Positions 5,438 through 28,456 of a stretch of 30,667 bases of DNA are shown here, piece by piece (position 1 is the first letter of the stretch; each line of letters starts with the position of its first letter). This DNA comes from Ectocarpus siliculosus. Taxonomy: Eukaryota > Sar > Phaeophyceae > Ectocarpales > Ectocarpaceae. Below the pieces are notes generated by a model, which did no database searches, was not told the DNA's origin, and saw only the letters and a program-made list of their open reading frames with translations. The translations under genes and the position numbers were made by a program. The stretch covers positions 1,549,783 to 1,580,449 of the forward strand of contig FN649737.1 in NCBI GenBank assembly GCA_000310025.1, in the 5' to 3' direction.

Positions 5438-5894
5438 TCCCCGCCACGGACCCCGATTTTCGATTATTTAGTAGGCCTATGTGTCTAGGATGTTTTTCAG
5501 GAAGACCCTTGTGTATGCATAGATCCTGCTGTCGAAGTGACCGAGAGCAAGGGTCATCAAGGGGTGAGGATGCATAATGAAGATAAAAGCAGGCAGCAGG
5601 AACAACCCACAGCAGCGGTGTGGCGTAAGGTCAACAGGTCATTCACACAGCTGACGGCCGACGACGTGCTATTGTCTCGAACAGCCCAGCGAACCTACGC
5701 GAACCAAAAACAACCACACGCCGCTAACCAAGGATCAACACGGAAGCACGGAACAAGCTGCTTTTTCCGTATGCAAACTGCTGTATGTGATCTGTCTTCC
5801 TATGGGTGCCACATACAGAATACCCAATATTGTACGCGGACGACATTCACGAACATCATGACATAGGTGTAGGGCTTGTAATCGTTATGACATC
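5438..5894. other. intergenic between LINE and receptor copy 1
   Basis: There is no convincing gene. One 109-codon open frame on + (5537-5866) has low complexity, no recognised domain and no counterpart in front of copies 2 and 3. Similarity between copy 1 and the other two copies begins only at about 5895. Promoter elements are not clear. Confidence 0.4.
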
Positions 5895-5953
5895 AAAAGT
5901 TGCACGTCGATGCTTATGAGTCCCGCCGTCCAACGTACTCGTCATGGCAAACA

Positions 5954-7394
5954 ATGCAACACTGCTTGCGTGTGCGTTCTCAGGTTCCTTCCTCTCGACA
6001 CGCGCAGGCAGCAGGTTTGGCGACTGTGCTGGTGATGTCGGCAGCAATTCCTGAGTTCGACGAGGTGTGGCGTTGGGACGGATGGACAACTCTTGATGAG
6101 CATACCAATGATGGTGCGGTCGACTTGGACGGCAATGTCGTGCTCGTGGGGTCACAAGGCTACGCGGCAGCAGAATACACAATCGATGACACTTTCGTAG
6201 ATGCCTATTCCGGAGATTTCGCCGCCGTCAAGTTGGAGGGCGCGTCAGGCGAAGTGCTGTGGACTTGGACAGCTTCCTCTTTGGGGAGCGAAGCGGATAC
6301 GTTTCTCGCAGTGGACACCGACAGCAACAACGATATCGTCATGGGAGGTCGGACGGAAGGGTACTGGTCATCGTCCAACCCCGACACGACCCCACATATA
6401 GCGGTCGTGAAGCTTGATGGGGGTACGGGGGATGAGATATGGAGGTACCAAGAACACCCTCCGGACTCATACACGTCTTGGGGGAATTCCGTTTACCACG
6501 GTTTGGGCAGCGTTAGCGGTGTGGCTGTCGACGGCGATGATAATTGCCTTTTGGTGGGCCAAACCTATGGCAGCCTGGTCTATGGTGAGGGTGACCCTGG
6601 AGATTCTGATTTCTTCGTCATCAAGCTAGACGGGACGGACGGCAGCGAGATCTGGACGGTGCAAGGCGGAGAGTCGGCGAGCTTTGATTCATTGCACCAC
6701 GTAAAGGTGGACTCGGGCGGAGATCTGATCGCCGTCGGCATAGGTGGAGACGAAGACGCAGTGAACGTTGTCGTGGTGAAGTTCAGCGGCACCGACGGCG
6801 CCGTTCTCTGGGAATATTCGCCTGTCACGTCGTCCACTCATGATGTTCCCGCGTCGGTCGACGTTGACACCCAGGACGATGTGTATATTGCTGGCGGCTA
6901 CGATGCCCTGAATCTGCAGGGCACTCTAGCAGAAACTCCGGTGGTGCTGAAGCTAGACGGGGCGACAGGCGATGTCGTGTGGACCTACGAGGGCGTAACC
7001 ACATCGAGCGCTGGGCTCATTTGTGTTGCCGTGGATCTTACAACGGGGTGGGTTGTGGGTGCTGGCTGGACGGAAGGGACCTGGTTGACGGGGGCAGCTC
7101 AAGGCGGCTATGACTTCGCGGCGGTGGTGCTAGATGGGGTCACTGGAGATGAACTAGGGCGCTACCAGGATGGCACCACTGATGACGAATATCTTTCGTT
7201 CGTTGGATTTGATTCCGTTGGGGGCTTAATCTTGGGGGGATCCTGGACGGACACCGGCGGAGATGAGTTCGTGGCGATCAAGTTCGCCCCCTGGAACTCG
7301 AGTTACCCCACAACGGGGACGGAAGCACTTGCCCAGTGGGAGATCGGGGCCATCGCAGGCGCGGGGGCTTTGTTCCTTTTACTCCTGGGACTAT
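5954..7394 (+). CDS. SBBP/PQQ-like beta-propeller membrane protein, copy 1, main exon
   Basis: This encodes the ectodomain and membrane helix of a probable single-pass surface protein. Starting at the in-frame ATG 5954, the first ~35 residues end in AAGLATVLVMSAA, a plausible secretory signal core. The mature part begins EFDEVWRWDGW. Then follow about six repeats of 55-75 residues with the pattern [FV]-x-V-x-K-[LF]-x-G-x-x-G-x-x-x-W and a later V-D-x-x-x-[ND]-x-x-x-x-G-[GA] strand, typical of SBBP/PQQ-type propeller blades. A short linker with NSSY (a possible N-glycosylation site) leads to the helix QWEIGAIAGAGALFLLLLGL. The frame is open throughout. The exon should end at 7394, where GTGAGT follows and is conserved in all three copies. 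Without splicing the frame would run to a stop at 7690 through sequence that is not protein-like. Ligand and function are unknown. Confidence 0.8.
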
Positions 7395-8542
7395 GTGAGT
7401 GCCGAATGGCAGGCCAGATCGATAAAGGCCTTCTGTACGTGATTTTGTTTTCCGGTCGACGACTCAAGGATGCCAGTTTTTCCGTAAAGTTTTCCTTATC
7501 TTCTCCCGTACACTTACGGCAATCTTGCCGTTCGGTCGTGGGCGGGGAGCGTTTGCCAGGGGATTGGAGAGTATATCAGGGGGGCAACATCCCCAAGGGG
7601 AAGGCTGAAAAAGGTTATCCTGTACACCTCCCCCCGCATGCATGCTACAGTTTCGATTTTTGCGGTATTTGTTGTCAATACCAGTGGTAAAGAGGCTCTC
7701 CAACATTGAAGCGCAAGCTCTTCTGAGATAAAATGACTTTCCACCGCCGGACGTCTTCGATTGCCAAAGCTTTAGCGCTCCCGAAAGCAACCTATTCCCC
7801 GCAGATGTACCAGACAGGGGGCGTCTTTGTTGTTGTGGGATCATGATCCTGCGCGGGCTGGGCAGGATTAGCACCGAAAATGTTGACTGTATGCCGCGTT
7901 AGTTTCGGGGAAGGATGGATTTCAAGTCGTTAACAGGATTAAATGTGGAAACTGCCTTGGAATCGAGCTGAAGTCGGCATCCCTCTGCTGGCTCCCAGAA
8001 TTCACAATTATTTCGTAACGAAGACACGCTCCTCGTGATGAGCGAGCGCCGGCTCGTTCAGTTACTTTTCCAGTCATTGTACGGGTTGAGAAGCGGTGAT
8101 CGTGATGAAAACGTGTGTCAACTTCGGCCTACGTGGCCAATCCCCATGTATCGGCGGCCGAGCCTCATGTCTCATGAGCCCGCTAGAGGTACGTGGAGCA
8201 CAGACAACACCACATATTTGCTTGTTACGTTGGCGTACCGCGTGAAAGGCCGTTTCGATCACTGCTTTCTTCGACGTATTGTATCCTCACCGCACCGCTC
8301 AGGCATTTTCTGCTTCCGACGCAAGAGCTCTCAAGGTCAGCAAGATGCAGCCAAAGGTACGTGCCTCGATGTAGCAAGCATGCGGTAGGACTTGGTGTCG
8401 GTTCAGGGATTTCCCGGAGTTGGAGCAGCGTGCTGGTGAAACGGGGCTCGATCATACCCCCCTGTGCGATATCCCCGTTGTGCTTAGATCCTCCGTCATG
8501 CTATCACCTTCCTCTCAGCAGGTTCATCGCAAATTTTTCCAG
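7395..8542 (+). other. probable intron 1 of receptor copy 1
   Basis: It starts GTGAGT right after the membrane helix and ends TTTTTCCAG at 8542. The sequence aligns to the same interval of copies 2 and 3 but shows no consistent reading frame, and contains a conserved C-rich/G-rich block near 7540-7630. Two open frames in it (8035-8388 and 8193-8609) are not conserved in frame in the other copies. Confidence 0.55.
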
Positions 8543-8605
8543 TGGAGAATTTCGTCGGTCCGAGTGTGCAAGGCGAAGTTCTTCAACCTCGACCGTTGGT
8601 CATAG
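8543..8605 (+). CDS. receptor copy 1, candidate exon 2 (juxtamembrane)
   Basis: This is a 63-base block between TTTTTCCAG and GTAGGA. Exon 1 ends in phase 1 (a lone T), and that base plus this block gives an open frame reading LENFVGPSVQGEVLQPRPLV, again ending in phase 1. The homologous block in copy 2 (13897-13959) has the same length, both splice signals and the same frame (EIFGGPSVQGEVLQPRPLV). That agreement in length, phase and frame is the main support. In copy 3 the block is two bases shorter and the donor GT is lost. No domain is recognised. Confidence 0.55.
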   Translation, partial: WRISSVRVCKAKFFNLDRWS

Positions 8606-8954
8606 GTAGGAACGGCCTGTTACTTTCATGGCAACCGCAAAACAATCTTTAGGCAATCGGTATTGTGTTGTCGTGTGCGCTTGACTTCAGATTGTCATCG
8701 TGTGGGAAACCCCTTCATAGTTCTAGCACACGTGTGAGCTCCGGATCGTTATCGGAGCTATGCGCCTGGCATGTGTCGTCATCGATGTCGTGAACTCGGC
8801 GTGTTCGGGATCTGCTTGGGCTAAACCGCGTTCATTCACCGGTCGTACCATTTGCAACCTCAAACAGCCAGCACCCCAACCAGGCTGGATAACCTGGCCG
8901 CTATCGCATACGTGCACTCACTCTGCTTAAATGAAATCCTTACACTCTGGTCAG

Positions 8955-9135
8955 ATGATTCCTCCCCCCCACCCCCAATCCCTCGATGCGTTGACCGCAG
9001 TGAGCGGAATGGGAGAATTTGCACCTCCTGCGCCTCCTGCACCTCCTGCTCCAAAGACACCCCTGCCCCCACCTGCAGAACCCCCTCTCTCGCCACCACC
9101 GGACAACAACCCACCACCCCTTCCACCGCCCGAAG
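8955..9135 (+). CDS. receptor copy 1, candidate Pro-rich cytoplasmic exon
   Basis: The block is bounded by CTGGTCAG and GTCAGA. In the frame that ends in phase 1 it encodes a Pro-rich segment: SLDALTAVSGMGEFAPPAPP, then further proline runs ending PPPEG. The same frame is kept in copy 2 (SPLDSLTAAGGRGAFAPSAP...LPPPAYNSL) and copy 3 (FLDSLVAASRMGGFPPPPPP...PPAYNSPPPEG), where a PPAY motif is present. Entry is in phase 0 while the preceding candidate exon leaves phase 1, so either an extra small exon lies between them (a conserved stretch at 8739-8830 is a candidate) or one boundary is wrong. Role inferred: proline-rich ligand for SH3/WW-type domains. Confidence 0.5.
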
Positions 9136-9394
9136 GTCAGAGCTGTTAGGTGATCAGGCACGGTTATTCACGGCCCAAGAATTGGGAGATATCTGCCGAA
9201 AAGCAGGACAGTGTGCGGCAGGTCCACTGTTGTTGTATCTGCTTGGCTGGATGACATTTTCACCGTGCCTGCCGTGAACCGTCTTGCTGACGACATCGGA
9301 TTGGGATGTCCACTTGGGATTGTAGATCAAGAACTTGGCACTCCATGGGGATATCCGTTGAGTTGAATGTCGTCTTGCTTGAAACCCCACGCAG

Positions 9395-9493
9395 TTGCTG
9401 CCACTGAGGAGCGTCCACCACCGCCATCCTACGAGGAGATGAATGCCCCGGAGCCTGCCGCAGCCCCGGCTGAAGCACCATGGGAACGGCTAG
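9395..9493 (+). CDS. receptor copy 1, candidate PPxY-containing exon
   Basis: This 99-base block lies between CCCCACGCAG and GTGAGT. Entered in phase 1 from the Pro-rich exon it encodes VAATEERPPPPSYEEMNAPE and then APWERL, leaving again in phase 1. PPSY is a PPxY motif, the classical binding site for WW domains such as those of Nedd4-family ubiquitin ligases. Copy 3 has a block of identical length with FATDELPPPPSYGDLNPP (in-frame TGA near its end). In copy 2 the acceptor AG has mutated to AT and the motif is PSSY. Matching phase with the previous block supports splicing of the two. Confidence 0.55.
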
Positions 9494-9923
9494 GTGAGTT
9501 TTGCAGTCAAGCCTTCGACGAGCATAGTTTCACGCCACTTGTTGGATTTCTGGTCCCCTTGTTGATGTATCTGCGGCATGGCGAAGCTTGAGGCAGTGTC
9601 GATCCGTCTCTGTGTCTCGTTGAATATTCTCCAATTGTTTGATAACCCTGTTTGTCAAACGTCGGGAGCTTCCGCGATCGATCGTGTTTTGGCATGATCG
9701 TAAGTATGATGCGTGCTGCGCGGAGGTGAGTATTTGAAACAGAACCGCCTCGCGAACAGGCAAAAGAGGCACGAGGCAAGCAGTGGCACCGCTGCACCAA
9801 CAGTTGAAGCGTTGATGGTGTCGAGTTGAAATGACAATGCAATGACATTTACCCGCGCTTCTTCACCCTCTGACGTCCAAAACGATGCGTTTCTGCCTCT
9901 TCGCCTTTGATATGCCTGTACAG

Positions 9924-10030
9924 CCAAGCGAGTGGACCGCGTCCCCAGCAAGAAAGCGTTCGAACAAAACTACCGAGACATATCGGTCAGCCGCTACGCA
10001 CCGTACGCACCGTCTACAACCGATCATTAG
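9924..10030 (+). CDS. receptor copy 1, possible terminal exon
   Basis: It follows CCTGTACAG, an acceptor also seen in copy 2 (CCTGCACAG). Entered in phase 1 from the PPxY exon it gives 35 residues beginning AKRVDRVPSKKAFEQNYRD and stops at TAG 10028-10030, a basic tail. In the other two copies this frame is interrupted early, and another frame (PSEWPAS...RKRS) looks more conserved, so the choice of frame is uncertain and the block could instead be untranslated. Confidence 0.3.
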
Positions 10031-10110
10031 TCCAGACTGCATTTCGTGGAGGACTTCTACGTGGATATTCCGTTCGGCACGAGGGTTGTTATGATAGAGT
10101 TCAGTACCGG

Positions 10111-12149
10111 TTGCACTCATGGTGATTTTGAAATCAGGCCCAGCCTGGACTATGTACTCCATTGTATAGCAGTTTAGCCTCGCTTCCATGCTGAGGCTCG
10201 ATATTGTGATATTTTCTTGTTTTGTTCCAGACCCTTAGCTTGATTGTCTCAGGATGCACTTATGAGCTGGCCTGTAATATACAAGATCCGCGGTTGCCAT
10301 GCTGAGTTGATGAGGAATAACAACATGCGGTACGGGACAGTCAAAGTGTACGATAGAAGAGACTGAGAGACCACCGAGCCGGGGGTGGGGGGGGCAAGGG
10401 GGAAGAAGGGTCGAAGGACCTCGTTGGAGGAGACGACTGTCGTTGCGGAGAGCAGGACGGAGTGAATGCGAGACATGTACCGGACTGAATATGATGGAGG
10501 TGGACTGGAATAATAGTCAAAGGTCTCTCTCTCTCGCACTTCTTCGCTATGCCCCCCGCCTGGTCATTCCCCCCGATGTGAGATGTCGTTATCCTAATTA
10601 TCATTGTGTTGTCTAAATATTTGTTGTCCCGGCGTGGAGTGATCTTAGAACCACCCATACGCGCTTATATTTTTGCGTGTACGTGCGGGGAACGGCTTGG
10701 CCGGTGTAACCCCGGCGGTTAACACAACCCCGGCCGTAGGAGAGGGAATCAGACGACAATTATTGTAGTTTTGATTGGTGATCTTTCACTCTTGAATTTG
10801 TTGTGTTTTTTTTCGAGCACGAGCGACGGACTCTCTTTCTCTTAATTATGAGAATGCGCGTGACGAGGAGGAGAAGGAGGAGGAGGAAGAGGAAGAGGAA
10901 GAGGAAGAGAAGGAGCCTGACAGGTGCTTCTTCTCATATGTCAAGCCTAGCCGTTGCTCGTAGACGCAGGGCGTATCACCGGTAACGTTTTGGCTTGTTT
11001 CTCGTCGATGCATGTATGTCAGCGTAGCGGTTTCGTTTTGGTGTTTGTTTTGCCGTTGGAATAACGGTACTTTTATTTTTTGGTGTTTGTTTTCGTAGCG
11101 TTTTCGCGCGCATTTTATTTTGGTGATTGCTTTGTTGCATGGCACTTTATTGGTACGATAGCCTAGCCGTTTCTCGCAGACAGGGTTGATGAAAGCAAGG
11201 CTGGCATGTTGCGTGTTGCGTTGTAGGCGCAGAGTAGCGGTTGCATGCGCGTAGGTGGGAAAAAAAATGAAAGGTGGTGTTGCGGCGTTGCTCGTGAAGA
11301 TGTGGCATGTGGAGCAATGTTCCTGTTTTCAGGTTGGTTTGTTGCAGTTGGCCATTTACAAGTCAGCTTTGGGATAATAAACAAAAGTGACATCATAAAC
11401 ATGTTCCTGATGGCTATTCCGGAGGGAAGAAAAACAGCTTTTGTCCGATGGACCGTTTGCGGACGAAAAATGCGCGTACTTTTCACCTTGCGCCTTGCCT
11501 TGCCCGTGGCCTTACGCCCGTTGGCGGCAACTACACATGGCCATGCACTAGCCGTTGTTGAAGTAGGTCGGGCACGGTCAAAACCTCGACACATGAAATG
11601 GTTGAGAGGATGGGCACGGCCAACCCCCAGCACGTGAAATATTCCTTCGCTTCTCCCGTTGTTCCTAGGTGCGTGGCCCCACGGGGAGTTGCACACCTTG
11701 GAAGGCTGTTTTTCGTTGGATCGGGGCGATCTATAGGGGGGTACGTACGTGCCCGTGTCTCAGTTTTAGCTAGGTCTACTACCCTCGACCATTTTGTGTG
11801 CGGTGGTGCGTCCTTTCAGTTGCCCTGCCCTTAGACGTGCAGAACCTCATTGCTTGTTGTATCTGTTCGTTTCTGAACATGGACGTCGAAAAATGCAGAC
11901 AAAATTGATATTCGAACTCGGCACCGTACATCGTCGTATATATTTCCGACCAATATTACTCACGCGATGGGATGAGCAGAAAACACTCGACTCTTTCCCG
12001 AACATATCTTCCTACCTCAATCTTTGACCTCTTTGGAGCAAGAGTCGATCTGCCAGAAAAAGCTACAGCAGTACATGTGGCCTCTACCCTTCAGTGGCGA
12101 AATGCACCAAAGACCAACAGTACCGCATGGTGCGGTTCCTCGTCAGCAA
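10111..12149. other. intergenic, no supported gene
   Basis: This stretch lies between the far ends of inverted copies 1 and 2. The longest open frames (11163-11696 on - and 11245-11637 on +) overlap on opposite strands, have no recognised domain and contain no splice-supported structure. A phrase of about 29 bases starting GGGCACGG near 11569 is imperfectly repeated near 11610. It also holds a GA-rich microsatellite (10864-10916). Confidence 0.45.
10864..10916 (+). repeat. (GAG/GAA)n purine-rich microsatellite
   Basis: About 50 bases of nearly pure purine made of GAGGAG and GAAGAG units. It reads as Arg/Lys-Arg runs on + and Ser/Phe runs on -, so the overlapping short open frames are by-products of the repeat. 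Confidence 0.85.
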
Positions 12150-12469
12150 TTCACCACGGTCCTATCGGATCTTGCGTACATTATTACGGGTCAGCTCGTA
12201 AGAAACGAAGTCGTGGATCTCATGCTAAAGTTTTGAAACAATACAAGCAAATATCGGGCCTCAGTATCGATTGCAACACTAAATCCTATAAAATGGGCGA
12301 AGTTTGACCTTCGCCCCATCAAGAAAGCCAGGCTGAGCCTAGATTTTCAGTTACATATGAGCGGAACCGGTACCGTACTGTATGTCTATTCCAACATTCT
12401 TGACCCAGGGGATATCCAGGTAATAGTGCACACAATGTCCGCCACGAAATCAAAACGCAAGTGTAGACT

Positions 12470-12577
12470 ACATACTGATCGGTGGTTGACGGTGCGTGCG
12501 GTTCGTAGTGGCTGACCGATTTGTCTCGAAAGTCTCTGTTCGAACGTTTTAATTGGGTTCGCGGGCCACTCGCTTGG
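12470..12577 (-). pseudogene. receptor copy 2, counterpart of terminal exon
   Basis: It begins after CTCCTGCACAG on the minus strand and aligns with 9924-10030. Entered in the phase expected from copy 1 it meets a stop (TAA) within about ten codons because the block is one base shorter. The PSEWPAN... frame is open instead. Considered part of the decayed copy 2. Confidence 0.3.
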
Positions 12578-13109
12578 CTGTGCAGGAGTTTGAATGCAGA
12601 GGGCAAAGAGGCAAAAACGCATCGATCATTTCTGCTGTGAGAAGGTGAAGTGGCGCCAAATAAGCAGCATGGCACGGTGCTTTCAACTCGACATCATTAA
12701 CGCTTCAACTGTAGGTGTACCGGTGTCATCCGTTGCCTCATGCCTCGCCACTTGTTCGCGAGGTGGTTGTGTTTCAATAATCATCTGACCGCATCCATGC
12801 ACACAATCATACCCCAAAAAGATCACTGAGCACCCGAGGGAAAACGGGGTGGACAAAAGATGGTCATCATATACCTGAAGATTGCTCAACGGGGCACAGA
12901 AACGGATCGCCATGTCCATTACGATTGGGTGGGCGTTCTACACGAAACTTCCTAAAGCCTTTACGATATTACACTGACGCTAGCTCAACTGCAACGGGAC
13001 CAGCAATCCAACACGTGGTGGGTTCTCGATGTTTGTTTGTGGCGTGACACTCCTTTTACAAGGATTGACTGCAAAACGCACGTAGTCGTTCCCGTGGTGT
13101 TTCACTGGG

Positions 13110-13184
13110 ATTCGTTGGGCGCCGGGAAAATCCTTTTCCCGTAGGATGAGGGCGGCGGAAGCTCCTCAGTCTCCGCGGCAGCAA
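13110..13184 (-). pseudogene. receptor copy 2, degenerate PPxY exon
   Basis: The minus strand reads AAETEELPPPSSYGKR, aligning to the PPPPSY exon of copies 1 and 3, but the tyrosine motif has become PSSY, the downstream half no longer matches, and the 3' splice site ACGCAG of copy 1 is here ATGCAT. It is unlikely to be spliced correctly. Confidence 0.5.
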
Positions 13185-13380
13185 ATGCATGATGTTTCAA
13201 AAAGGGGTGGCGTCTAACCACTTTGTTTGAAAGTTGGTTCTGGGCAGGGACGATGAAACCACCACACGACTTCGTCGATAGAACAACGGCGGACCTGCCG
13301 CGCCCTACCCGGCTTTAGGCATGTTGGCCCCCAAAATGTCGACGGTAGCAAACCGTGCCTGCTCGCCTATCACCTCTGAC

Positions 13381-13522
13381 CTTCAGACGGTGGGCGGGGT
13401 AGCGAGTTGTAAGCCGGTGGTGGCAAGCGCGTCTCAGGAGCAGGAGGTGCAGACGGTGCAAACGCTCCCCTTCCGCCCGCTGCGGTCAACGAATCGAGTG
13501 GGGATGGTGGGGGGTGATGCTT
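13381..13522 (-). pseudogene. receptor copy 2, Pro-rich exon
   Basis: The block lies between CTCTCGTCAG and GTCAGA on the minus strand. It is open in the same frame as copy 1 and encodes SPLDSLTAAGGRGAFAPSAP, then PPAYNS and PRPPSEG. It is 39 bases (13 codons) shorter than copy 1, so frame is preserved. PPAY is a PPxY motif. Locally intact, but part of a gene disabled elsewhere. Confidence 0.45.
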
Positions 13523-13896
13523 CTGACGAGAGTGGAAGGCCTTCATTTACGGAAGAATGAATGCACATGTGCGAAGCGGCTAGGCAAGCAGCCTGGTGAG
13601 CTACTAGTGCCATGGTGGGTTTCTGCAAATGGTACGACCGTTGGATGAAAGGGTGCTCTAGACAACAACACCCCAAGCAGCTCCCGAGCACGCCGAGTTC
13701 ACGCTGTCGATGACGACACATGCAATGCGCATAGCTCCGACAACGATCCGGAGCTCACACGTGTGCCTTCTACTGCAAGAATTATGAAGGGGTTTCCCAC
13801 ACGATGGCAATCTGAAGTCAAGCGCGCACGATAAAACAATGCCGATTGCATGAAGTTTGTTTTGCAGCTGCCATGAGAGTAACAGGCTGTTCCTAC

Positions 13897-13959
13897 CTTG
13901 GACCAGCGGTCGAGGTTGAAGAACTTCGCCTTGCACACTCGGACCGCCGAAAATTTCCC
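13897..13959 (-). pseudogene. receptor copy 2, juxtamembrane exon
   Basis: Sixty-three bases between AATCCAG and GTAGGA on the minus strand, encoding EIFGGPSVQGEVLQPRPLV in the phase left by the membrane exon. Length, splice sites and frame equal those of copy 1 (8543-8605), which is the best evidence that this block is a real exon in the family. Confidence 0.5.
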
Positions 13960-15118
13960 CTGGATTAAATCGCGATGAACCCGCTGAGGGAAAGTGATCT
14001 CATGACAGAGGTTCTAAGCACAATGGGGATATCGCATTGGGGGTATGATCGAGCCCCGTTGCACCAGTTCGCTGCTTCGACTCCGGGAAATCCCTGAACC
14101 GACACCAAGTCCTACCGAATGCTTGTAACATTGACGCACTGACCTGTGCCTGTCCCTTGCTGATCTCGAGAGCGCTTGCGTCGGAATCAGAAAAGGCCTG
14201 AGGTTCGGTGAGGATGCAAAATGTTGAACAAAGCTGTGATCGAAACGGCCTTTCCACGCGGTACGCTAAGTTAACAAGAATAGGCGGTATCGTCTTTGCT
14301 CCACTAACCACACCCGATAGCTTCCGCAACGACCAGCACCAGGCGTTCTTAGGAGCGGGCTCGTGAGCCATGAGGCTCGGCCGATACACGTGGATCGGCC
14401 ACGTAAGCATAAGTTGACTCAAGCTATTATCACGATCACCGTTTCTCAACCGGTACGACGACGAAGGCAATCCGATTAAACCAGTCGGCGCTCGCTGACG
14501 CGAGGAGCAACCACGTGACAGCCAACTTGTATTTCACCCATTGGGGGCCAGCCGAGGGATGCCGACTTCAGCTGCGTTTCAAGGAAATTTTCCAAATGAA
14601 GTCCTGTTAACGCCTTGCAATGAAGCTCTTACTGCGAAACTAAAGGCCATAGCAGTGTACCATTCTAACGTTCGGTACTAATGTTGACGACGCCCGGGGA
14701 GGGTCATCATCTCACAACAACGAATAACCCCCCCCTCTGGTACCTGCTTAGGGGGGAAAGACTCACTGTCAGAAACGCTTGGTTGTACATGTTAGTGAGA
14801 TGGCATAGAGGAGCAAAACTGCGAAAATCGAGGTTGTAGTATGGGGAGGTGTACTGTCAGCCTTCCCCTTCAGGAATGTCCCCCCCCTGAGATGCTCTCC
14901 AATCCACTGGCAAATGCTCCCCCCCGACGGTCAAACCTAACACAGAACAAGGGAAAATTGACCTAAATCTCCCGAATATGAGGAAGATTCTGCCGGAGAA
15001 AACATTGCACTCGAGTCGTCCCGGTGGTAAACAAAAGCACCTACGGAAGGCTTTTATCAACCTGGCCTGCTGTTCAGCACTCACAGAGTCCGAGGATTTA
15101 ACAGGAGCAAAGCCCCCT

Positions 15119-15132
15119 CCCCGCCTGCGACC
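15119..15132. repeat. left target-site duplication of the copy 2 insertion
   Basis: CCCCGCCTGCGACC here is repeated at 16389-16402. Uninterrupted copy 3 has a single CCCCGCCTGCGA at the matching place. Because the insert ends in poly-C, the C-rich edge of the duplication cannot be fixed; at least GCCTGCGACC is duplicated. Confidence 0.65.
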
Positions 15133-15141
15133 CCTCCCACC

Positions 15142-15333
15142 GGTGTTTGCCATCGGGGTTGGGTTTTCGTCGCTTGGCAACGACGTTGTAAAACAAGCCG
15201 CCCCCCCCGGTGTTTGCCATCGGGGTTTGGGTTTTCGTCGCTTGGCAACGACGCTGTAAAAGAAGCCCCCCACTCGGTGTTTGCCATCGGGATTGGGTTT
15301 TCGTCGCTTGGCAACGACGTTGTAAAACAAGCC
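15142..15333 (+). repeat. 67-bp tandem repeat, about three copies
   Basis: Units start at 15142, 15209 and 15276 with GGTGTTTGCCATCGGG and contain GGGTTTTCGTCGCTTGGCAA followed by CGACG. CGTCG and CGACG can pair around TTGG, giving a small hairpin per unit. The period is exactly 67 between starts and the third unit is slightly short. It lies at the 5' end of the retroposon insert. Confidence 0.9.
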
Positions 15334-15359
15334 AATTCACTTCGTGAACTCGGCAACCA

Positions 15360-15405
15360 GGTTACCGTTTTTTTTTTTACCTCGGTTTTTTTTTTGGCGG
15401 TAACC
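15360..15405. repeat. GGTTACCG/CGGTAACC inverted repeat around T runs
   Basis: GGTTACCG at 15360-15367 is matched by CGGTAACC at 15398-15405, enclosing two runs of T separated by ACCTCGG. It could fold as an 8-bp stem with a 30-base loop. It lies inside the retroposon insert; function unknown. Confidence 0.6.
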
Positions 15406-15816
15406 ATGAATGGTGGTCGAGTAGATCATGTTGTGCGGGGTCGAGAAACCTCACTCCGCGCAACGGGGGATGATCGCACCACGTTGTGTTAAAATGGTCA
15501 AGCTTCCTCGAGGCAGTTACACAGTGCTTACAACTGTCTCTGGAAGTGAAAGCACCAGAAAATAAATTAAGTCATACGTAGCTGTCATCCGTACGCAAGG
15601 AAGTAAGCACAAGATGCCGAACACCCTTAGCAGGATGCAGCTCACCCTTCATGCGACTCGCCAAATACCTCACGGCGCTTTGCGCTTGGTGATGTGAGAG
15701 CCTGGTCCGGTGAGAACCCGGCGTGCTCCGTCCCGGCTTTGTAGGGATGCGAGGTCAATGGTCAAACGACTACGGCATGCACGACTATGAGTACACCCCC
15801 CCCCCCCCCCCCCCCC

Positions 15817-16243
15817 GGGAACATTTTCCAGTGGGCGAGTATTTTTGAACCCGCCAAAGGCGTTTAAGAATCCCTCCAATCCCAAGGCCGGGGACCCGGA
15901 AAAGGAAAAGGGAGGGGGGCCCGGGGGGGGAAATTTATCCCCCCCAAATCCTCTTTCCCGGGGTCCCTCCCGGGGCCCCCCCAAAAAAACCCCCCCACAA
16001 AAACCAAACCAAAGAAAGGAAAGGAATCCTCCTCCGCGGGACCCCCCTGGGAACCTCCCAATTTGGCCCCCTAAAACCCCTCCAACAACCCCCCGGGCAA
16101 ATCCTGGGCCCCTTGAGAAAAACCCCAAACCCCGGGTTCTTTTGTTCAGCCCGGACCCCCAAACCCCCCTGGGGGGGGAACCCCCCCCACCCCCAAAAAA
16201 ACAACTCTCCACGTGGGTACCCCCCCCTAAAATCCCATGAAAT
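15817..16243. other. probable low-quality duplicate sequence (assembly artefact)
   Basis: This extremely C-, G- and A-homopolymer-rich stretch aligns base by base, with smeared calls, to the good sequence at about 16403-16832: for example TTTTCCAGTGGGCGAGTATT against TTTCCCAGTGGTCGAGTATT, and later CTCTCCACGTGGGTAC against CTCTCGACGTGGCTAC. It begins immediately after a 21-C run, as a sequencing read that lost phase would. The long open frame that seems to cross it is not real. Confidence 0.85.
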
Positions 16244-16343
16244 NNNNNNNNNNNNNNNNNNNNNNNNNNNNNNNNNNNNNNNNNNNNNNNNNNNNNNNNN
16301 NNNNNNNNNNNNNNNNNNNNNNNNNNNNNNNNNNNNNNNNNNN
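16244..16343. other. assembly gap (100 N)
   Basis: Exactly 100 N, the conventional length for a gap of unknown size. The flanks indicate that the true missing length is probably zero. Confidence 0.98.
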
Positions 16344-16371
16344 AAGGATTCCGGCATCCAGGATTAGGAGT
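16344..16371. other. probable low-quality duplicate, right side of gap
   Basis: AAGGATTCCGGCATCCAGG onward is a smeared version of the good sequence ending at 15795 (AACGACTACGGCATGCACG onward). It sits immediately left of a second 21-C run (16372-16392). This is the mirror of the artefact on the left of the gap: a read from the opposite direction losing phase through the same C run. Confidence 0.7.
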
Positions 16372-18310
16372 CCCCCCCCCCCCCCCCCCCCCGCCTGCGA
16401 CCATTTCCCAGTGGTCGAGTATTTCTGACCCGGCCAATGCCGTTGATGAGTCACTCGAGTCCGAGGCCAGGGTACCGGGAGAGGGAGAGGGCAGGGTGCC
16501 CAGGGGGGCGAACTTGATCGCCACGAACTCATCTTCGCCGGTGTCCGTCCAGGTGCCGCCCAAGAACAGCCCCCCAACAGAATCGAATCGAACGAACGTA
16601 AGGTAGTCATCATCAGCGGTACCGCTCTGGTATCGTCCTAGTTCGTCTCCATATACCCCATCTAGCAGCACCGCGGCGAAGTCATGGCCGCCTTGAGATA
16701 CACCCGACACCCAGGTCTCTTCTGTCCAGCCAGCACCCACAATCCCCCCTGTGGTGGGATCCACCGCAACCCCAAAGAACACAGCTCTCGACGTGGCTAC
16801 GCCCTCGTAGATCCACATGACATCCCCTGTCGCCCCGTCTAGCTTCAGCACCACCGGAGTTTCTGCTATATAGCCGAGCAGGTCCTGGGCATCGTAGCCG
16901 CCAGCAACATACACATCGTCCTGGGCATCAACGTCGACCGAGTGGAGCACGTCATGTGTGGACGATGTGACAGGCGAATATTCCCAGAGAATACTACCAT
17001 CGATACCGCTGAACTTCACCACAAAGGCATCGACGGCGTCTGCCTCTCCGCCTGAGCCAACGGCGATCAGATCTCCGGCCGAATCCACCTTGACCTTGAT
17101 CAAAGCATCAAAATTGGTTGACTCTCCGCCTTGTACTGTCCATACTTCGCTGCCGTCCGTCCCGCCTAGCTTGATGACGAAGAAATCAGAATCTAAAGGG
17201 TCACCTTCGCCGTAGACCAGGCTGCCAAAGAGTTGCCCTACTAAGAAACAGTTATCGTCGCCGTCAGCAGCCACACCGATCACGTTGCCCGAACCGTAGT
17301 ATCCCGAATAAGACGTGTACGAGTCCAGAGGGTGTTCTTGGTACCTCCATATCTCATCCCCCGTGCTTCCGTCGAGTTTCACGGCCGCCAGATGTGGGAT
17401 GTTATAGGGGTTGGACGATGACCAGTACCCCTCAGTTCTACCCCCCATAATGATGTCGTCATTGCTGTCGGTGTCCACTCAGAAAAAGTAGTCCTCTTCG
17501 CTCGCCAAAGAGGAGGTGGTCCAAGTCCACAGCACTTCACCTGAGGAGCCGTCCAACTTAACGGCCGCGAAATCGCCGGGATAGACATCTCCGAAAGCGA
17601 CATAGAGTATGTTTTCTGCGGCCGCGGAGCCTTGTGACCCCACGAGAACCAAATTGCCGTCCAAATCGATAGCACCATCATTGACGTTATCGTCAAGAGC
17701 GATCCAGCCGTCCCAACGCCACACCTCGTCGGAAGTGGACACAATGCCCGGCATCACCAACGTAGCAAAACCTTGCCTGCATGTGCAGAAAGGAGCGTGG
17801 AGAAAACGAGTGGCAGGGTGGCATTGTTGTTGCCACAGAAATGCTGTCTAAACGTCTGAATCGGGATGCGAGCATCAACGTATGTATCCAACATGGTGCA
17901 GAAATCGACGCGACGCGTGCTGACATCAGGAGCGCACTATAGTCTAATGTGCACTATTTTATAGCGACATTGATCGCGCTTTGTCGAAGCATGTCGCACC
18001 CCGTGTTGCCACGAATAATCCTCAATATGTAGTAGATGAGGACAATTTGGAGGGCGGGGGCAACTTGTTCTTTGAGTCTCAACGACGTAACTAGTAAAAC
18101 GCGTTCCAGTACCTCGACAAAGCAATAACGGGCGAGTGAACGTGCAATATTCACTCCTTAACGAGCACATGGCACTGTGTTCAGCAACAATATGGGACAC
18201 TTGAAAACGCGAAAATAGAGCCTACGGGACATTGAGCAAAAGCGTCCGAGCTTCGGCGGCACCTTGACTTTTTTCTTCGTTCCGTGTTTCGCGTCGGATT
18301 GTTTTGCTCT

Positions 18311-20199
18311 TCCGGCACCACGTGGGCAAAACAATCTGCCGCCGTGTCGCTCTCCAAGGACTCTTTCTATAAGTTGAACATGGCGTGTAACGAGCAACTT
18401 GGCAGAGCGGACGACTGGAACTCTACGTCGGGGCTCAGAACCTTTGGTGCCAGTCCGACGGTGGACACGAGCCTCGCATTCACCACCAGCACTGCAGCTA
18501 TTAGTCGGGATCACCGCTAAGGCTGTGATCTAAGCCATTGCGATGCTTGCTAACGCGGGCCAGGACATTTGTGCAGTTGGAGCCATAGCGGGCTACATCC
18601 ACGCCGGCCAAGCTATGGCGTGGAGCTTATCCTCCGCCAGCTTGCCTCTGTGGTGCTCGATGATGATAGCAGTGGATCCTGAAGCGCTGCGGCCCAGGAT
18701 ACGGTGGCCCTTCAGGCGCAACTGTGGCCTACCGACCAGCCCACTTTTCCATGCAATATTTCAGGGTCAGGGGGGCTTTGAGCAGACCCACGCCCGGCTC
18801 AGCGCGAAAGGAGATGGTGCCGATGGAGGTTAGAGACCGGAACCGATGGTGAAGAACTATTAAACATTGGGCCGTCCTTCACACGGCGGGGGGGCGGCCA
18901 ACTATATGGCTTTCCACGAGGAGCCGTTGTCTCTGGCATTGGGAGACGCCTTTGCAGCGTATGCCCCCCCGTACGCCGCTTTAATCCCATAGCTGTATAT
19001 ACGAAAGTTTGGGTGACTCAACCACGCTCCAGGTCAGTGGTCGCGAAGAAGACGGGACAAGGAAAGTATGGGTGGGACCACAGGCCGGAGCTGGAGGCCT
19101 CATCCAAAAACCCAATACTTAGATTAAAATATCCTAGGCCACGAGCAATAATACAACAGAAAAATCCTGTTTGTTGTTCTTTTTCACAGAATGTTGTATT
19201 GTAAACGACGAAGAATTATTATGTGATAAAGTGAGATGGATCTAGAATGTCGATGTAGTGTTCATATCCCTTGCCTATCGTTTCAGAGCCGAATGTATCT
19301 GCCGATGAACCAAATAGTAGCACCACGAGAAACTAATCGTGAACCCCAAATCTGCAGTTTCCGGTAGATATATTATTTATTTATTTATTTTTTCTTAATA
19401 TGACACAACGAAACCATCTCTATCATAGAAAAGAGTCTGAGACAGAGTAGCAATGGATTCATAGCGTCAGAAAGTACCTGTATGTCTACGATTTCCCAGA
19501 CAGCATATAGGGACATACAGGTTCAACAAGACAGTAAGGAGCATTGACGGATGCTCTTCTTGTGTGCGTGTACAAGTACTCCAATGATCAGTAAATTTAC
19601 CCGGATAGACTTACTACATGGTCAGACGAGATACATGGACGCCTTCATGTAGACCGAATACAAGCACGCACAGGGAGATGTCACAATGTTTTCCATTCAC
19701 ACCGTGGATAAGTGCTGTTCCTTGAGGTGTTCATGGTGGTGTGCGGGTTGAGGAGAATGACCTACTCTCCTGTAGAAAAAAATACTTCCAAAACACTCTC
19801 TCTTCTTCCTATTGACGACATGTTCATGGTGGTGCGCGGGTCGAGGAGAGTGACCTACTCTCCTGTAGAAAAAATGCCTCCAAAACACCCTCTCTTCTTC
19901 CCATAGTCGATGTTGAAGTCGAACGGCCCCCTCTCTTGTATGTAGGGAACAACCGCGACCGAATGAATCTCAGAATGCATCCCAGCCAACGGCGAGGTAT
20001 GGTCCTGTCCATCATGGCACAACAGGGCACCCTGAACAATTCCGCATCCAGCCTCGTGAGTGACCGATATTTCGTCGTTTTTACCCCCAGTGACAACTGG
20101 GTGCTAGCCTCATTTATCCATGATGTTCGTTCGAAAGCCTGTTCTCCAAGAAGAGCGAATGCCATCTTTCGATTACTGTAGCTCCCAACAGGCGTTTGA
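18311..20199. other. intergenic between copies 2 and 3, no supported gene
   Basis: Only short open frames on both strands, none with a recognisable domain. A 96-codon frame at 18543-18833 (+) has an amphipathic Ala/Gly-rich start but no relatives in the window and no splice or promoter context. It contains an ATTT microsatellite at about 19372-19391 and a 93-bp tandem duplication at 19728-19913. Confidence 0.4.
19728..19913 (+). repeat. 93-bp tandem duplication
   Basis: Two units start TGTTCATGGTGGTG at 19728 and 19821. Each contains AGGAGA[AG]TGACCTACTCTCCT, whose ends pair as AGGAGAGT/ACTCTCCT around GACCT (one mismatch in the first unit). The period is a multiple of three, so open frames on both strands run through it as 31-residue repeats without other coding evidence. 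Confidence 0.85.
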
Positions 20200-21104
20200 C
20201 AACGGTTACCCACGATATTGTCGCTTTGTTCACGACCTATTTAGACTGTGCTCGGATCTTGCACACAGTACCGCCCAGCTCCGTTGTAACGAAGTCGAAA
20301 GGAAGCCAGGCTAAGATTCTGAACACGAACCAAGAAAACATACGAGCCTCGGCGTCTAATTCAACACTAAATCCTTTACAATCGGCAGGTGCTCGACCTT
20401 CGCCGTATCAAGAAAGCTAGGTCGAGTTTGATCTTCAGTTCCTTGTGAAAATGACTACTCTAAAGTTACATCTTCTCTGCCACGGGGAATATCCGGGAGT
20501 GGTACACAAAAGCGTCTTCGACGAACGATCAGTCTTGACTGCAGTAGTAGTGATCGCTTAAAGACGGTGCGTGCGCTGCGTAGCGGCCGACCGATTTGGC
20601 TCGTTCTGTCGGAACGTTTTCTTGGTGGTGAGGATGCGGGCCAGTCGCTAGGCTTTGCAGGAACATGGAGAACGAAAAAGCAGAAAGACATCGATTTCAC
20701 TGTGAGAAGGGGAAGTAGTACCGTAAAACGTCATCGCGTTGTGCCTTCAACTCGACACAGTCAAAGTTCCTAGGTGTAGCGGTGCCACTGCTTGCCTCGT
20801 ACCTCTTTCGCCTGTTCGCGGGACGGTTTTGTGCTTTCAGTAAGTCATCGCATGCCTACGATCATGCCCAAAAATGATCGCGGAGAACCCGACAGAAAAC
20901 GAGGTGAGCAAACAGGGTTATCAAACGGATTGGAGACACGTAGTCTATTCAATGTGGCACAGAGACGAATTGAGACTGTCTAGAGCCTTTCGGCTACGCC
21001 GCTCACACCAGCTACTTCAAAAGAGGCCAGAAACCAACAAGGGCCGGACTCTTGACGTTTGTGGCGAGATGCTGCTGTGTGCTCGATAAGGCTTCTAGAC
21101 GCAC

Positions 21105-21203
21105 CTACTCATTGCCATCGTGTTCCATCTGGGGCTGAAGCGAAGTCCGGCGGGTTCAGGTCCCCATAAGACGGTGGTGGTGGAAGCTCGTCAGTGGCAA
21201 AAG
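21105..21203 (-). CDS. receptor copy 3, PPxY-containing exon
   Basis: Ninety-nine bases, equal in length to copy 1 exon 9395-9493, between ACTCACGCAG and GTGCGT on the minus strand. In phase 1 it encodes FATDELPPPPSYGDLNPPDF, then TRWQ and an in-frame TGA just before the donor. The PPSY motif is kept. The protein may end here, or the exon may be decaying. Confidence 0.4.
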
Positions 21204-21510
21204 CTGCGTGAGTTAGAAAAAACCCCCGTTAAACTCAATGGACACCACCATCGCCCAACACGTTCTTAATCGACAATCAGGAGGGACGATTTCATTGAAC
21301 ATGTGTCAGCAAAGATGGGCCACGGCAGGCACGATGAAACCATTACACAACCAAGTCGACAGAACAACAGCGGACTTGCTAAATCCTTACTGACTCCTCG
21401 GCATTTCTCCCCCTAAATTGCCCACCGTAAGAACCCATGATTGATCGCCTAACAACAGATTTTTGCCCACAGTAAGAACCCATGATTGATCGTCTAACAA
21501 CAGCTCTGAC

Positions 21511-21671
21511 CTTCAGGCGGTGGCGAGTTGTAGGCCGGAGGTGCCTGGAGAGGCTGTGCTGCCGGTGGGGGCAGGGTTGTCCCAAAAGCAGGAGGTGGAG
21601 GAGGTGGAAACCCTCCCATTCTGCTCGCTGCGACCAACGAATCGAGGAAGTGCGGGTGGGGGGAAATGATA
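21511..21671 (-). CDS. receptor copy 3, Pro-rich exon
   Basis: The donor side (GAAG|GTCAGA) equals copy 1. The acceptor side has lost about 16 bases including the polypyrimidine and CAG of copies 1 and 2, leaving only AATGAAG as a weak acceptor. The frame reads FLDSLVAASRMGGFPPPPPP, then LPPPAAQPLQAPPAYNSPPP and ends EG. PPAY is a PPxY motif. Whether it is still spliced is doubtful. Confidence 0.4.
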
Positions 21672-22083
21672 CTTCATTTGCAAAGTGAATGTATGTATGT
21701 GACAGCGAACAGGTGTTCAAGCCTGGTGAGGTGCTAGTGCAATGGAGGTATTCTGTACATGACACGCTCGATGGATGGATATGGAGGGTACGCCAGACAA
21801 CAGCCGAAGCAGCTCTCGAACACGCCGGGTTCACGAAATAGAATGATACAACGATTCTTTTTAGCAAGAATGACACGATGGTTCTAGCATTGAGAGCGAC
21901 ACGAAGAATGCGCATACCGCCGACAAAGACCTACGGAGCTAGCACGTGTACTTCCTGCTGCCAGAACTATGGAAGGTATTTCCCACAGGACGGCATTCTA
22001 CAGTCAAGTGATCACGACAAAACAATATATAGCGCCGAAAGAGTGGGATATTCTCCGCATGAGGGTGAGCAAGTCGTGTCTCC

Positions 22084-22144
22084 CTTTAACCTACGGTCGA
22101 GGGGAAGAACCTCCCCTTGCACTCTCGGCTTGCCGATTATTCCA
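22084..22144 (-). pseudogene. receptor copy 3, broken juxtamembrane exon
   Basis: It aligns to the 63-base exon of copies 1 and 2 with a good acceptor (TGTCTTGCAG) but is two bases shorter. Entered from the membrane exon it meets TAA at the third codon, and the donor GTAGGA is replaced by GGAGAC. If used, the protein would lose the whole Pro-rich tail directly after the helix. Confidence 0.5.
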
Positions 22145-23314
22145 CTGCAAGACATGACGATGCACCCGCTAAGGGAAAATGATAGAGATGTTTTTAGCAT
22201 GATGGGTGGGGGTATGATCGAGCCCCGCGACAGCAAGTGCACTGCTCCGACTTCAGAAAATCTTTGAACGGATACCAAGGCCATACCGAATGGTTCGACG
22301 CATTTACCTTTGGCTGCATCGTGCTGACCTTGAGGACGCTTGCGTCGGAAACAGAAAAGACCTGAGGTATGGTGAGGAAACCCATCGAACAAAGCAGCGA
22401 TCAAAGCGGCCTGTTACTCGGTACGCCACCTACACAAGCAAAAAGTGTTGTACATATGTGCTCCACGTATCTCACCTGACCGCCTACACAACCACCAGCA
22501 CCAGGAGGCGTCACGAAGTCAGAGGGTCGGCCTAAACACAAGGTCAGCCATGCAGGGCGGAAGCTTTCATCACCGCTGTGATCAAACGGAATTTACGGTA
22601 ACAACGGCACACAAACCTAAGTTGCCGGCGCACGCGCTTGACACGCCCCCTCTGCGAGCCACTCCACGTGATAGAAACTTCGTGTTCCAGTTCTCAGAAG
22701 CCAAAGAGGGGTGCGCATTCCGCCTTCCCATCAACTGCAGTTGTTTTCGCCTTCGGACTCACCCCCCCCCGCCCGCAAAAAACGGCCGAAGTGTAGACAT
22801 AACGTTCGATGTTAATGCTGAATAAGGTCCGGGGGGGATCGTAATCCCACAACTCAAACAATCCCCCGTCCTTGTAGAGGTTTTGCTTAGCGGGGCCTGA
22901 ATCTCTTTCGGGGCGTAGTATTATAATAATGAAATCGACGAAGGCGCAAGGCAAGTTATTCATCTGAGAACCACTTGCTCGTGGGTGTTGGAAAAGACAT
23001 TCCGCTACGGGTAAAGAGGCATAGAACTCCGGAAATCGATTGCCTAACAAGCATGCAGCGGGGGGAGGTGTACACGAGAACCATTCTCAGCCTTCCCCTT
23101 CGGACGTCCCCCCCCCTGACATACTTTCCGATCCTCTGGCAAACACTCTCCCCCGCCCGGCCATAACCAAACAAAGAACACGGCAAGATCGCTCGACGCC
23201 CGCGGAAAATGAAGCAGCATGCGGGAAAAAACGGCAATTTAATTCTTCCCAGTGGTGCACGAAACCACCCACGTAAGGTCTACATTGACCTAGCCTGCTA
23301 CATGTGGCACTCAC

Positions 23315-25036
23315 AGAGTCCGAGGAGTAGAAGGAGGAAAGTTCCCCCGCCTGCGATGGCCCCGATCTCCCACTGGGCAAGTGATTCTGTCCCGGCCGCC
23401 GCCGTTGTTGGGGCTGGGGTCGATATGGACCCACGACCAACCGGAGACGGAGTGGTCGAGGGAGGCTGGTTGCCGGCCAGGGGGGCCGTTGTTGGGTCAC
23501 CCGAGCCCGAGGGTAGGGCGATGGGAGAAGGAGTTGGCACAGCCAGGGGGGCGAGTGTTGCTTCGATCGGGGCAAGCGAAGAGGACAGGGGCGAAAACGT
23601 TGTCTGCAGAGAAGAAGGAGCTGGAGTAGACGCAGACCCAGGCGCGAACTTGATCGCCACGAACTCATCTGCGCCCGTGTCCGTCCAGGATCCCCCCAAG
23701 ATTAAGCCCCCAACAGCATCAAACCCAACGAACGAAAGATAGTCGTCATCAGTGGTACCATCCTGGTAGCGTCCTATTTCGTCTCCAGTGTCTCCATCTA
23801 GCACCACCGCGGCGAAGTCATAGCCGCCTTGAGCTGCACCTGTCAACCACGTCCCTTCCGTCCAGCCAGCACCCACAACCCACCCTGTTGTGGGGTCCAC
23901 GGCTACCCCAAAGAACCCAGCTCTTGACGTGGCTACGCCCTCGTAGGTCCACACGACATCGCCTGTTGCCCCGTCTAGCTTCAGCACCACCGGAGTCTCT
24001 GCTAGGTCGCCTTCTAGATTTAGAGCATCGTAGCCGCCAGCAAGATACACATCGTCCTGGGTGTCGACGTCGACCGACTCGGGAACGTCATGAGTGAAAG
24101 ATGTAACAGGTGAATATTCCCAGAGAATGCTTCCATCGATACCGCTGAACTTCACCACGACAACATTGATGGCGTCTTCGTCTCCGCCGATGCCTATAGC
24201 GACCAGATCTCCGGCCGAGTCCACCTTCACATCGACAAAAAAATCATAGCTCGTCGACTCTCCGCCTTGCACTGTCCAGATCTCGCTGCCGTCCGTCCCG
24301 TCTAGCTTGATGACGAAGAAATCAGAATCTCCAGCGTCACCCTCGCCGAAGACCAGGCTGCCCCAGGTTTGCCCAACCAAGAAACAGTTATCGTCGCCGT
24401 CGACAGCCACACCTGTCACACTGCCGGAACCGTAGTAAAAATAACTTCCCAAAGACGTGTACGTGTCCGGAGGGTGTTCTTGGTACCTCCATATCTCATC
24501 CCCCGTGCTGCCGTCAAGTTTCACGGCCGCAAGATGTGCGACGCTGTCGGGGTTAGACGATGACCAGTACCCCTCTGTTCTGCCCCCCATGACGACGTCG
24601 TCGTTGCTGTCGGTGTCACCTGCCAGAAACAGATCTGCTGCGCTCCCCAAAGAGGAGTCGGTCCAAGTCCACAGCAAATCGCCTGATGCGCCGTCCAACT
24701 TGACGGCCGCGAAATCTCCGGAATAGGCGTCTTCGAAAGTATCATCGAGAAGGTCTTCTGCGGCAGCGTAGCCTTGTGTCCCCACGAGAACAACATTGCC
24801 ATCCGAGTCGACCGCGCCATGAGTGAGAGTCTCATCAGAAGTTGTCCACCCGTCCCAGCGCCACACCTCGTCAAAACCAGGCACAACGCCCGACATCACC
24901 ACCACAGCGTTTCGAAAGCTTAACCTTGCGTGGATGTGCAAAACGGGACGTGACAAATACGAGTGTCGGCAGTGCCGAAATTGTTTGCCACAGAACTGCT
25001 GTCTAGACTGCGATGCAAGCATAAACGTGTGCAACA
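23315..25036 (-). CDS. SBBP/PQQ-like beta-propeller membrane protein, copy 3, main exon
   Basis: The frame is fully open from the ATG at 25036 (MLHTFMLASQS), although the frame stays open further upstream to 25190 and the true start is uncertain. The ectodomain begins FDEVWRWDGWTT and has the same blades as copy 1 (AVKLDG..GDLLW, VIKLDGTDGSEIW, VVLKLDGATGDVVW, AVVLDGDTGDEIG). It differs by a stalk of about 90 residues rich in Thr, Ser, Pro and Ala between FAPGSAS and AAGTESLAQWE, as in O-glycosylated mucin-like stalks. The helix IGAIAGGGTFLLLLLGL is followed by the conserved GTGAGT donor (23309-23314). Without splicing the protein would end five residues later (CECHM, stop). Best-preserved ectodomain after copy 1; downstream tail exons are damaged. 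Confidence 0.8.
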
Positions 25037-25425
25037 TGGCGTAAACATCGACACTTTCTGGCATAAGGAGCGTACTAGAGGTCACAACAAACGATAATGT
25101 CCTTGAGTGTTTTCGAAGCATATCCCACCCGCGTTGCTTTGAAACATCCTCAACACACCTCTTGGAGAGCATTGTTGGAAGGCGGTGCAATTTCTTGATT
25201 TGCGTGGTCTCAACATAAGGCCAACGACGTGACTTTAAAACGAAGGTTCAAGTACCTCGACGAGGAAAATGAAGGGCGGATGCACGTGCAGTCAATCCTA
25301 GGCAAGAACATGCAACTTTCTGGCGAAATAAAGGACAACACTTTCAACGGGAATGAGACATTTGGGCGAAATGCCTCGAAGTCAGGCCGTACTCTGACTT
25401 TTCTTTTGGTGCTTCGTGTCGGATT

Positions 25426-28256: not shown

Positions 28257-28456
28257 GGTCTCGAGGGGCATCACGTCAAATTTATTGCCGCCGTGACACA
28301 AACCTTCTATAAGAATACGTCACGTCCATCGACGATTAAGCGACCAAAAACGCCCGGACAGCAATTGATGCATGCCAAAAACTCGTCAACCTGCCGTAGG
28401 ATTGTCTATGCGGAAGTGATCTCCAATGAAAATAAAAAAAAAACAAGGACACGCAC

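Follow-up and report, generated by a model that had tools for sequence, protein, structure and literature searches.

What kind of protein is encoded by a cluster of related propeller genes in the brown alga Ectocarpus siliculosus? The question arises from a stretch of 30,667 nucleotides (the window; contig FN649737.1, here C12, positions 1549783-1580449), for which the original prediction described three homologous genes, one of them inverted, each encoding SBBP/PQQ-like propeller blades, a Ser/Thr/Pro stalk, and a membrane helix. We followed up this description with searches of the whole assembly (189 Mb in 492 contigs), the sole eukaryote genome searched. The reading that we favor, and to which we give somewhat less than an even chance, is a locally duplicated nuclear gene family for single-pass type I membrane proteins. 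In these, the propeller would lie outside the cell on a Thr/Pro/Ser-rich stalk, with a helix next, then FCFRRK as a basic stop-transfer segment, and finally a PPxY tail that would bind WW-domain or adaptor protein (AP) partners.

Three propeller regions lie in the window, at 6053-7291 on the forward strand (g1) and at 16504-17730 and 23640-24875 on the reverse strand (g2 and g3, respectively), with 83 to 86% DNA identity among them. The predicted three regions and the inversion were therefore seen, but the family comprises five full-length copies rather than three. In a six-frame search of the genome with the g1 propeller (twelve matches), full-length copies were found at five places within ~46 kb: g1, g2, and g3, together with gA (C12:1528295-1529533) and gB (C12:1541853-1543091), which lie upstream of the window and each share 94% protein identity with g1. 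A truncated relative on contig C24 gave a 203-residue match that ends after about half of the propeller. The remaining matches were four pieces, each about the size of an exon, from a single diverged paralog (C12:1603992-1607049) and short ones on contigs C15 and C33. Homology reaches into non-coding DNA, as had been predicted; for example, 7807-9044 aligns with 14743-13436 in inverted orientation. The stretch 5432-7423 is 95% identical in DNA to gB, and further blocks up to 10756 align with gA at 80 to 86%.

Synonymous divergence (dS) over all full-copy pairs ranged from 0.059 to 0.453. Among g1, gA, gB, and g3 it was 0.059 to 0.401, with a ratio of nonsynonymous to synonymous divergence (dN/dS) of 0.21 to 0.32 (412 codons); dN/dS was 0.31 to 0.33 for pairs with g2 and 0.27 to 0.36 for pairs with the C24 match. 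The open propeller exon of 412 codons has been kept in four of the five cluster copies (g1, gA, gB, and g3). The cluster copies are duplicates of differing age under purifying selection. Because dS between full copies is 0.06 to 0.45 and their flanks differ, we rejected the possibility that one locus had been assembled three times.

The gene model proposed at first for g1 (5954-7394) holds for the propeller and helix, but three more tail exons follow beyond 7394. The exons of the two intact copies inside the window are as follows.

6053-7394, forward strand: g1 exon with propeller (6053-7291), very short stalk, predicted membrane helix, and GTGAGT donor at 7395; possible start at ATG 5954
8303-8356, forward strand: g1 juxtamembrane exon, 54 nt, FCFRRK
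9001-9135, forward strand: g1 proline-rich tail exon, 135 nt, without PPxY
9395-9592, forward strand: last g1 exon found, PPPPSYEEM; frame runs to TGA at 9592 unless spliced near 9498
23315-24875, reverse strand: g3 exon with propeller (23640-24875), long Thr/Pro/Ser stalk, predicted membrane helix, and GTGAGT donor
22308-22361, reverse strand: g3 juxtamembrane exon, 54 nt, LFCFRRKR
21511-21627, reverse strand: g3 proline-rich exon, 117 nt, PPAY
21109-21203, reverse strand: last g3 exon, PPPPSYGDL and stop codon (stop at 21109)

The plan after the helix is common to g1, g3, gA, and gB: a GTGAGT donor is followed by the 54-nt exon that encodes FCFRRK, then by a proline-rich exon (135, 117, 126, and 126 nt, respectively) and a last exon. 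In all four, the tail exons have GT-AG limits and matching junction phase, and their lengths change only in multiples of three. The stop codon could be placed in g3; it is provisional in g1, gA, and gB. The helix-plus-tail plan of the original prediction thus extends to FCFRRK and to PPxYxx[M/L] in 4/4 intact copies. The Ser/Thr/Pro stalk is long in g3 and gA, but g1 and gB are almost without one (~15 to 20 residues).

The fifth copy, g2, is a pseudogene adjoining an assembly gap.

16504-17730, reverse strand: g2 pseudogene propeller, TGA at 17481-17479
15810-16342, reverse strand: 100-N assembly gap (16243-16342) and homopolymer-swollen duplicate reading; low end read by eye
14144-14197, reverse strand: g2 juxtamembrane exon, 54 nt, TGA at 14189-14187; read by eye
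13381-13479, reverse strand: g2 proline-rich exon, 99 nt, PPAY; limits counted by eye

Beyond the gap, ~15.8 to 16.24 kb is a second reading of the same stretch (71% identity) with swollen homopolymers; it is best explained as the poor-quality end of a read that was left unmerged, rather than as a biological repeat. At 15132-15333, within the disrupted helix region, there are direct repeats that are nearly identical (137 bases, 91%, offset ~69). Because this region is broken up, the claim that each copy encodes a stalk and helix fails for g2, while a hydrophobic helix does follow the propeller in g1 and g3. A PPxY was looked for in the last exon of g2 and was not found.

Such damage could mean that the whole family is decaying, a set of fragments and pseudogenes spread with repeats and without present function. 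The broken g2, the C24 match that stops about halfway through the propeller, the lack of one PPxY in g1, and the reverse-transcriptase open reading frame upstream of g1 would all fit. However, four open 412-codon exons with dN/dS of 0.21 to 0.32 at dS up to 0.40, and tail exons whose lengths change in threes, argue for maintenance, and we consider decay quite improbable.

Which propeller family do the copies belong to? A Pfam search with g3 matched PF06739 (SBBP) in one stretch (E = 0.0014; 19.0 bits versus a cutoff of 20.5); g1 had no PF06739 match at E ≤ 1, and its best row was a FAM234A/B propeller (E = 0.47). The NCBIfam family LipL53 (NF047494) matched both g1 (E = 3.5 × 10−12; 45.7 bits) and g3 (E = 3 × 10−11; 42.6 bits), far below its 400-bit cutoff. 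At E ≤ 1, neither Pfam nor NCBIfam gave a PQQ repeat family for g1 or g3, and no enzymatic or kinase domain was recognized in these copies at that threshold. Hence, of the SBBP/PQQ-like blades first described, the SBBP likeness stands, weakly and in Pfam for g3 only, but the PQQ likeness does not. A sequence search of the PDB gave no match at E ≤ 1. Among 72,556 plasmids, a single record matched, an SBBP repeat protein of Hymenobacter volaticus (NZ_CP095063; 25.2% identity over 99% of the g3 propeller; E = 8 × 10−9). By these sequence matches, the propeller appears to be a distant SBBP relative that falls under the curated cutoffs. It resembles the bacterial SBBP propellers (PF06739, LipL53, and the Hymenobacter protein) in the blade repeat, at sub-cutoff score or low identity; unlike them, it is encoded by a nuclear gene with introns and is joined to a stalk, a helix, and a tail with PPxY. 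More SBBP-like blades occur at C15:415500-425400 and C33:1987500-1993500 on separate open frames, as if with about one blade per exon, and one of the C15 blades (C15:424925-425020) exceeds the Pfam cutoff, with 39.9 bits.

Structure prediction with AlphaFold, from an alignment of four full copies and the C24 match (412 residues), gave the propeller fold that had been anticipated (predicted template modeling score [pTM], 0.81; mean predicted local distance difference test [pLDDT], 74.5). The 28 predicted strands run in the order D-(ABCD)x6-ABC, corresponding to seven four-stranded blades in a ring closed by the N-terminal strand. The ectodomain is thus predicted to be a seven-bladed, velcro-closed propeller. 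When the model was compared with known structures (983 chains aligned), the five best rows were all CylK (Z = 41.1 to 42.2); the next row, an unrelated protein, had Z = 33.0. The top match (Z = 42.2) covered 358 residues at a root mean square deviation of 2.5 and 23% identity. CylK (7roo and 7fh6) is a cyanobacterial Friedel-Crafts alkylating enzyme with an extra N-terminal domain, and the likeness is in the propeller fold. An enzyme ectodomain related to CylK-like propellers would explain why CylK is the best fold match; however, only the propeller part of CylK (~residues 250 to 652) was matched, at the same 23% identity, and the model has nothing that corresponds to the N-terminal domain of CylK. 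We give this idea very little credence.

The tails carry the motifs that point to possible partners. The last exon reads PPPPSYGDL in g3, PPPPSYEEM in g1, and PPPPPYEEM in gA and gB, so that PPxYxx[M/L] is present in 4/4 intact tails. A second PPxY lies in the proline-rich exon of gA, gB, and g3 (3/4 intact copies), as well as in the pseudogene g2; g1 is without it. With its extension to PPxYxx[M/L], the last PPxY doubles as a YxxPhi motif. The tail sequences therefore suggest recognition of PPxY by WW-domain proteins, of YxxPhi by an endocytic adaptor of AP type, or both. The closest model for such a tail is the C-terminal PPPxYxxL of ENaC, which contains both PPPxY and a YxxPhi motif that overlap (PMC7973139); ENaC itself is an unrelated protein, and its Nedd4 partner type is not evident here. 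The genome contains 75 WW-domain matches, 28 HECT matches, and 14 AP mu-type matches, 9 of which exceed the cutoff. Nine of the WW matches lie on one strand within 8.5 kb (C15:1688048-1696493), forming a multi-WW gene, a possible partner for the PPxY tails. Of 12 genome matches to a helix-tail query, 9 had E < 0.01, and every one of these is in the C12 cluster. The remaining 3 (E = 0.05 to 0.1) look like chance, and we rejected them as further genes with the same tail.

Which way does the protein cross the membrane? The juxtamembrane sequences read CLFCFRRKR or CIFCFRRKS. Under the positive-inside rule, basic residues straight after a helix place the tail inside, and we place the tail of this family inside for that reason. 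At the other end, GTGATG(T/C)CG stands about seven codons ahead of the propeller in all six sequences (five cluster copies and C24). In g1 (at 5954) and gB, an in-frame ATG lies farther upstream and gives MQHCLRVRSQVPSSRHAQAAGLATVLVMSA with a hydrophobic stretch; from ATG 5954, MQHCLRVRSQVPSSRHAQAAGLATVLVMSA could be a signal peptide. In the diverged paralog, a likely splice acceptor stands immediately before the opening of the frame. An unseen exon may carry part of the signal peptide, or there may be no signal peptide.

Several observations weigh against the favored reading. The 5′ end varies from copy to copy, and an upstream in-frame ATG is missing from g2. A scan for a signal-peptide exon upstream of the diverged paralog yielded unconvincing candidates only, the cluster copies having been checked by reading translations. 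In the propeller model, 59 of the 412 residues have pLDDT below 50, and the loops are modeled at such values. Residue-shuffled tails contain PPxYxx[hydrophobic] in 1.3 to 2.5% of cases, so any one tail by itself is weak evidence, and the observed PPxY count is reached by 0.6 to 1.4% of shuffled tails for gA, gB, and g3 and by 11% for the single PPxY of g1. Retention of PPxYxx[M/L] in g3 at dS of ~0.4 from the other copies is stronger evidence than one tail. By a reading of the WW and HECT tables, all HECT matches lie more than 80 kb from any WW match, although split exons or N runs could conceal one, and a Nedd4-type (WW-HECT) partner is accordingly not evident. The AP mu matches are of AP mu type generally, with AP-2 not told apart from the others.

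The 5′ end also bears on a different topology, that of an intracellular membrane protein that starts at the conserved ATG just ahead of the propeller, has no signal peptide, and holds its propeller on the cytosolic side of an internal membrane. The GTGATG(T/C)CG shared by all six sequences and the lack of an established signal-peptide exon agree with such a protein. The basic FCFRRK after the helix, the PPxY tail, and the Thr/Pro/Ser stalk suit the opposite topology, however, and the upstream in-frame ATG with its hydrophobic stretch in g1 and gB also speaks against a cytosolic propeller. An intracellular location seems unlikely to us.

In the type I membrane protein that we favor, the ligand of the propeller would be a carbohydrate or a protein, belonging either to the wall or to another cell. 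The helix would anchor it, the basic FCFRRK segment would serve as stop-transfer, and the proline-rich tail, with one or two PPxY motifs in the cytoplasm, would tune surface residence time via WW proteins and endocytosis. From this architecture we infer a receptor or adhesin role. Alternatively, the propeller and stalk may form a structural anchor that ties the membrane to wall polysaccharide, with a tail that controls turnover only and does not signal. The variable length of the Thr/Pro/Ser stalk, the lack of any enzymatic or kinase domain in g1 and g3 at E ≤ 1, and tail motifs compatible with turnover all agree with an anchor, and nothing decisive opposes it. Variable sites among g1, gA, and gB are concentrated on the predicted top face (16/141 versus 0/70 on the bottom; P = 0.0016), which suits recognition better, but the excess is gone when g3 is added (31/141 versus 11/70; P = 0.36). 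We regard a purely structural anchor as possible though not probable. Positive selection on the top face was considered and is unsupported, since dN/dS there is 0.20 to 0.58 and the site excess vanishes with g3.

Gamete recognition is one candidate role that could be drawn for the propeller family by analogy, since a lectin-like receptor is expected on male gametes of Ectocarpus (PMC4700764). We found no link of the family to gametes, and the rapid evolution that is common in gamete recognition is not apparent from dN/dS. In outline the proteins also resemble a lectin-like receptor, or integrin alpha and the Ectocarpus integrin-alpha-like protein CBN77719.1 (as described in PMC3192720), with a seven-bladed propeller, membrane anchor, and short tail. 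The repeats here are SBBP-like and not integrin-type. Pfam (E ≤ 1) gave no FG-GAP family for g1 or g3, and the tails contain no KxGFFxR; by these two features the family is not integrin.

The diverged paralog (C12:1603992-1607049; region C12:1600800-1609500) lies ~29 kb beyond g3 and is 53% identical to it over a manually joined model. Its propeller is cut by three introns, as it sits on four open frames; in the cluster copies it is a single exon. Our guess is that propeller introns were lost in the cluster. The stalk, the helix, and the following GTGAG donor resemble those of the cluster copies, and the exon after the helix reads CLCSVRRRAKAKM, the counterpart of FCFRRK. By our own reading of the DNA, its last exon is acidic, VDVYPDEDEDAKF, and without PPxY. 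In our reading, the paralog would have kept the outer part and carry a different tail.

Could the family be foreign to this genome? Bacterial contamination was rejected on the basis of the GT-AG tail introns, the nearby reverse-transcriptase open reading frame and repeats, G+C per kb of 0.44 to 0.60 across the window without a break, and intron-split relatives elsewhere in the genome. Among viral contigs, 66 pattern matches were obtained and none was confirmed, and phages gave no match, which leaves room for a viral origin. Prokaryote genome contigs gave 43 pattern matches, none confirmed, and as the patterns came from two short stretches, this is a weak test of recent transfer. In plasmids, the same check gave one distant match only, that from Hymenobacter. 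A literature search by title or abstract, with most subscription journals outside its coverage, returned no description of an SBBP propeller combined with a stalk, helix, and PPxY tail.

The surroundings of the cluster include several repeats. The reverse-transcriptase open reading frame (PF00078; E = 1.2 × 10−10) occupies 3908-4624 of the window, upstream of g1, and the DNA homology between g1 and gB begins at 5432, shortly past it. A short element at 2183-2403 resembles a miniature inverted-repeat transposable element, with inverted ends of 55 to 58 bases; a related stretch (79%) lies at 25806-25975. This pair was considered as a common first exon and rejected, given that the inverted ends of 2183-2403 give it the look of a short transposon. 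A tandem array with a period of ~251 bases spans 28429-30199 (four 245-base copies at a spacing of 251, 80 to 97% identical to the reference copy) and contains smaller internal repeats. The EsV-1-7 cysteine motif, whose family is expanded in brown algae, is abundant in the genome (150/150 scored candidates matched, out of 880 first-look candidates).

The gene family is real, small, and constrained, and its architecture is clear and unusual, from which we infer the receptor role. Complex multicellularity arose separately in brown algae, and only a few of the receptors on the surface of their cells are known. One further proposal, which we hold to be rather doubtful, is that brown algae built integrin-like recognition receptors from a bacterial-type SBBP propeller; the ectodomain, stalk, and helix would have been kept, the tail exons exchanged (acidic in one paralog, WW/AP-binding in the cluster), and the top-face loops diversified by duplicates. 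If the favored reading is true, the family would exhibit a propeller of bacterial type carried by a eukaryotic membrane anchor, and its combination of propeller, stalk, and helix with WW/AP-type tail motifs would provide concrete candidates for adhesion, wall sensing, and recognition.

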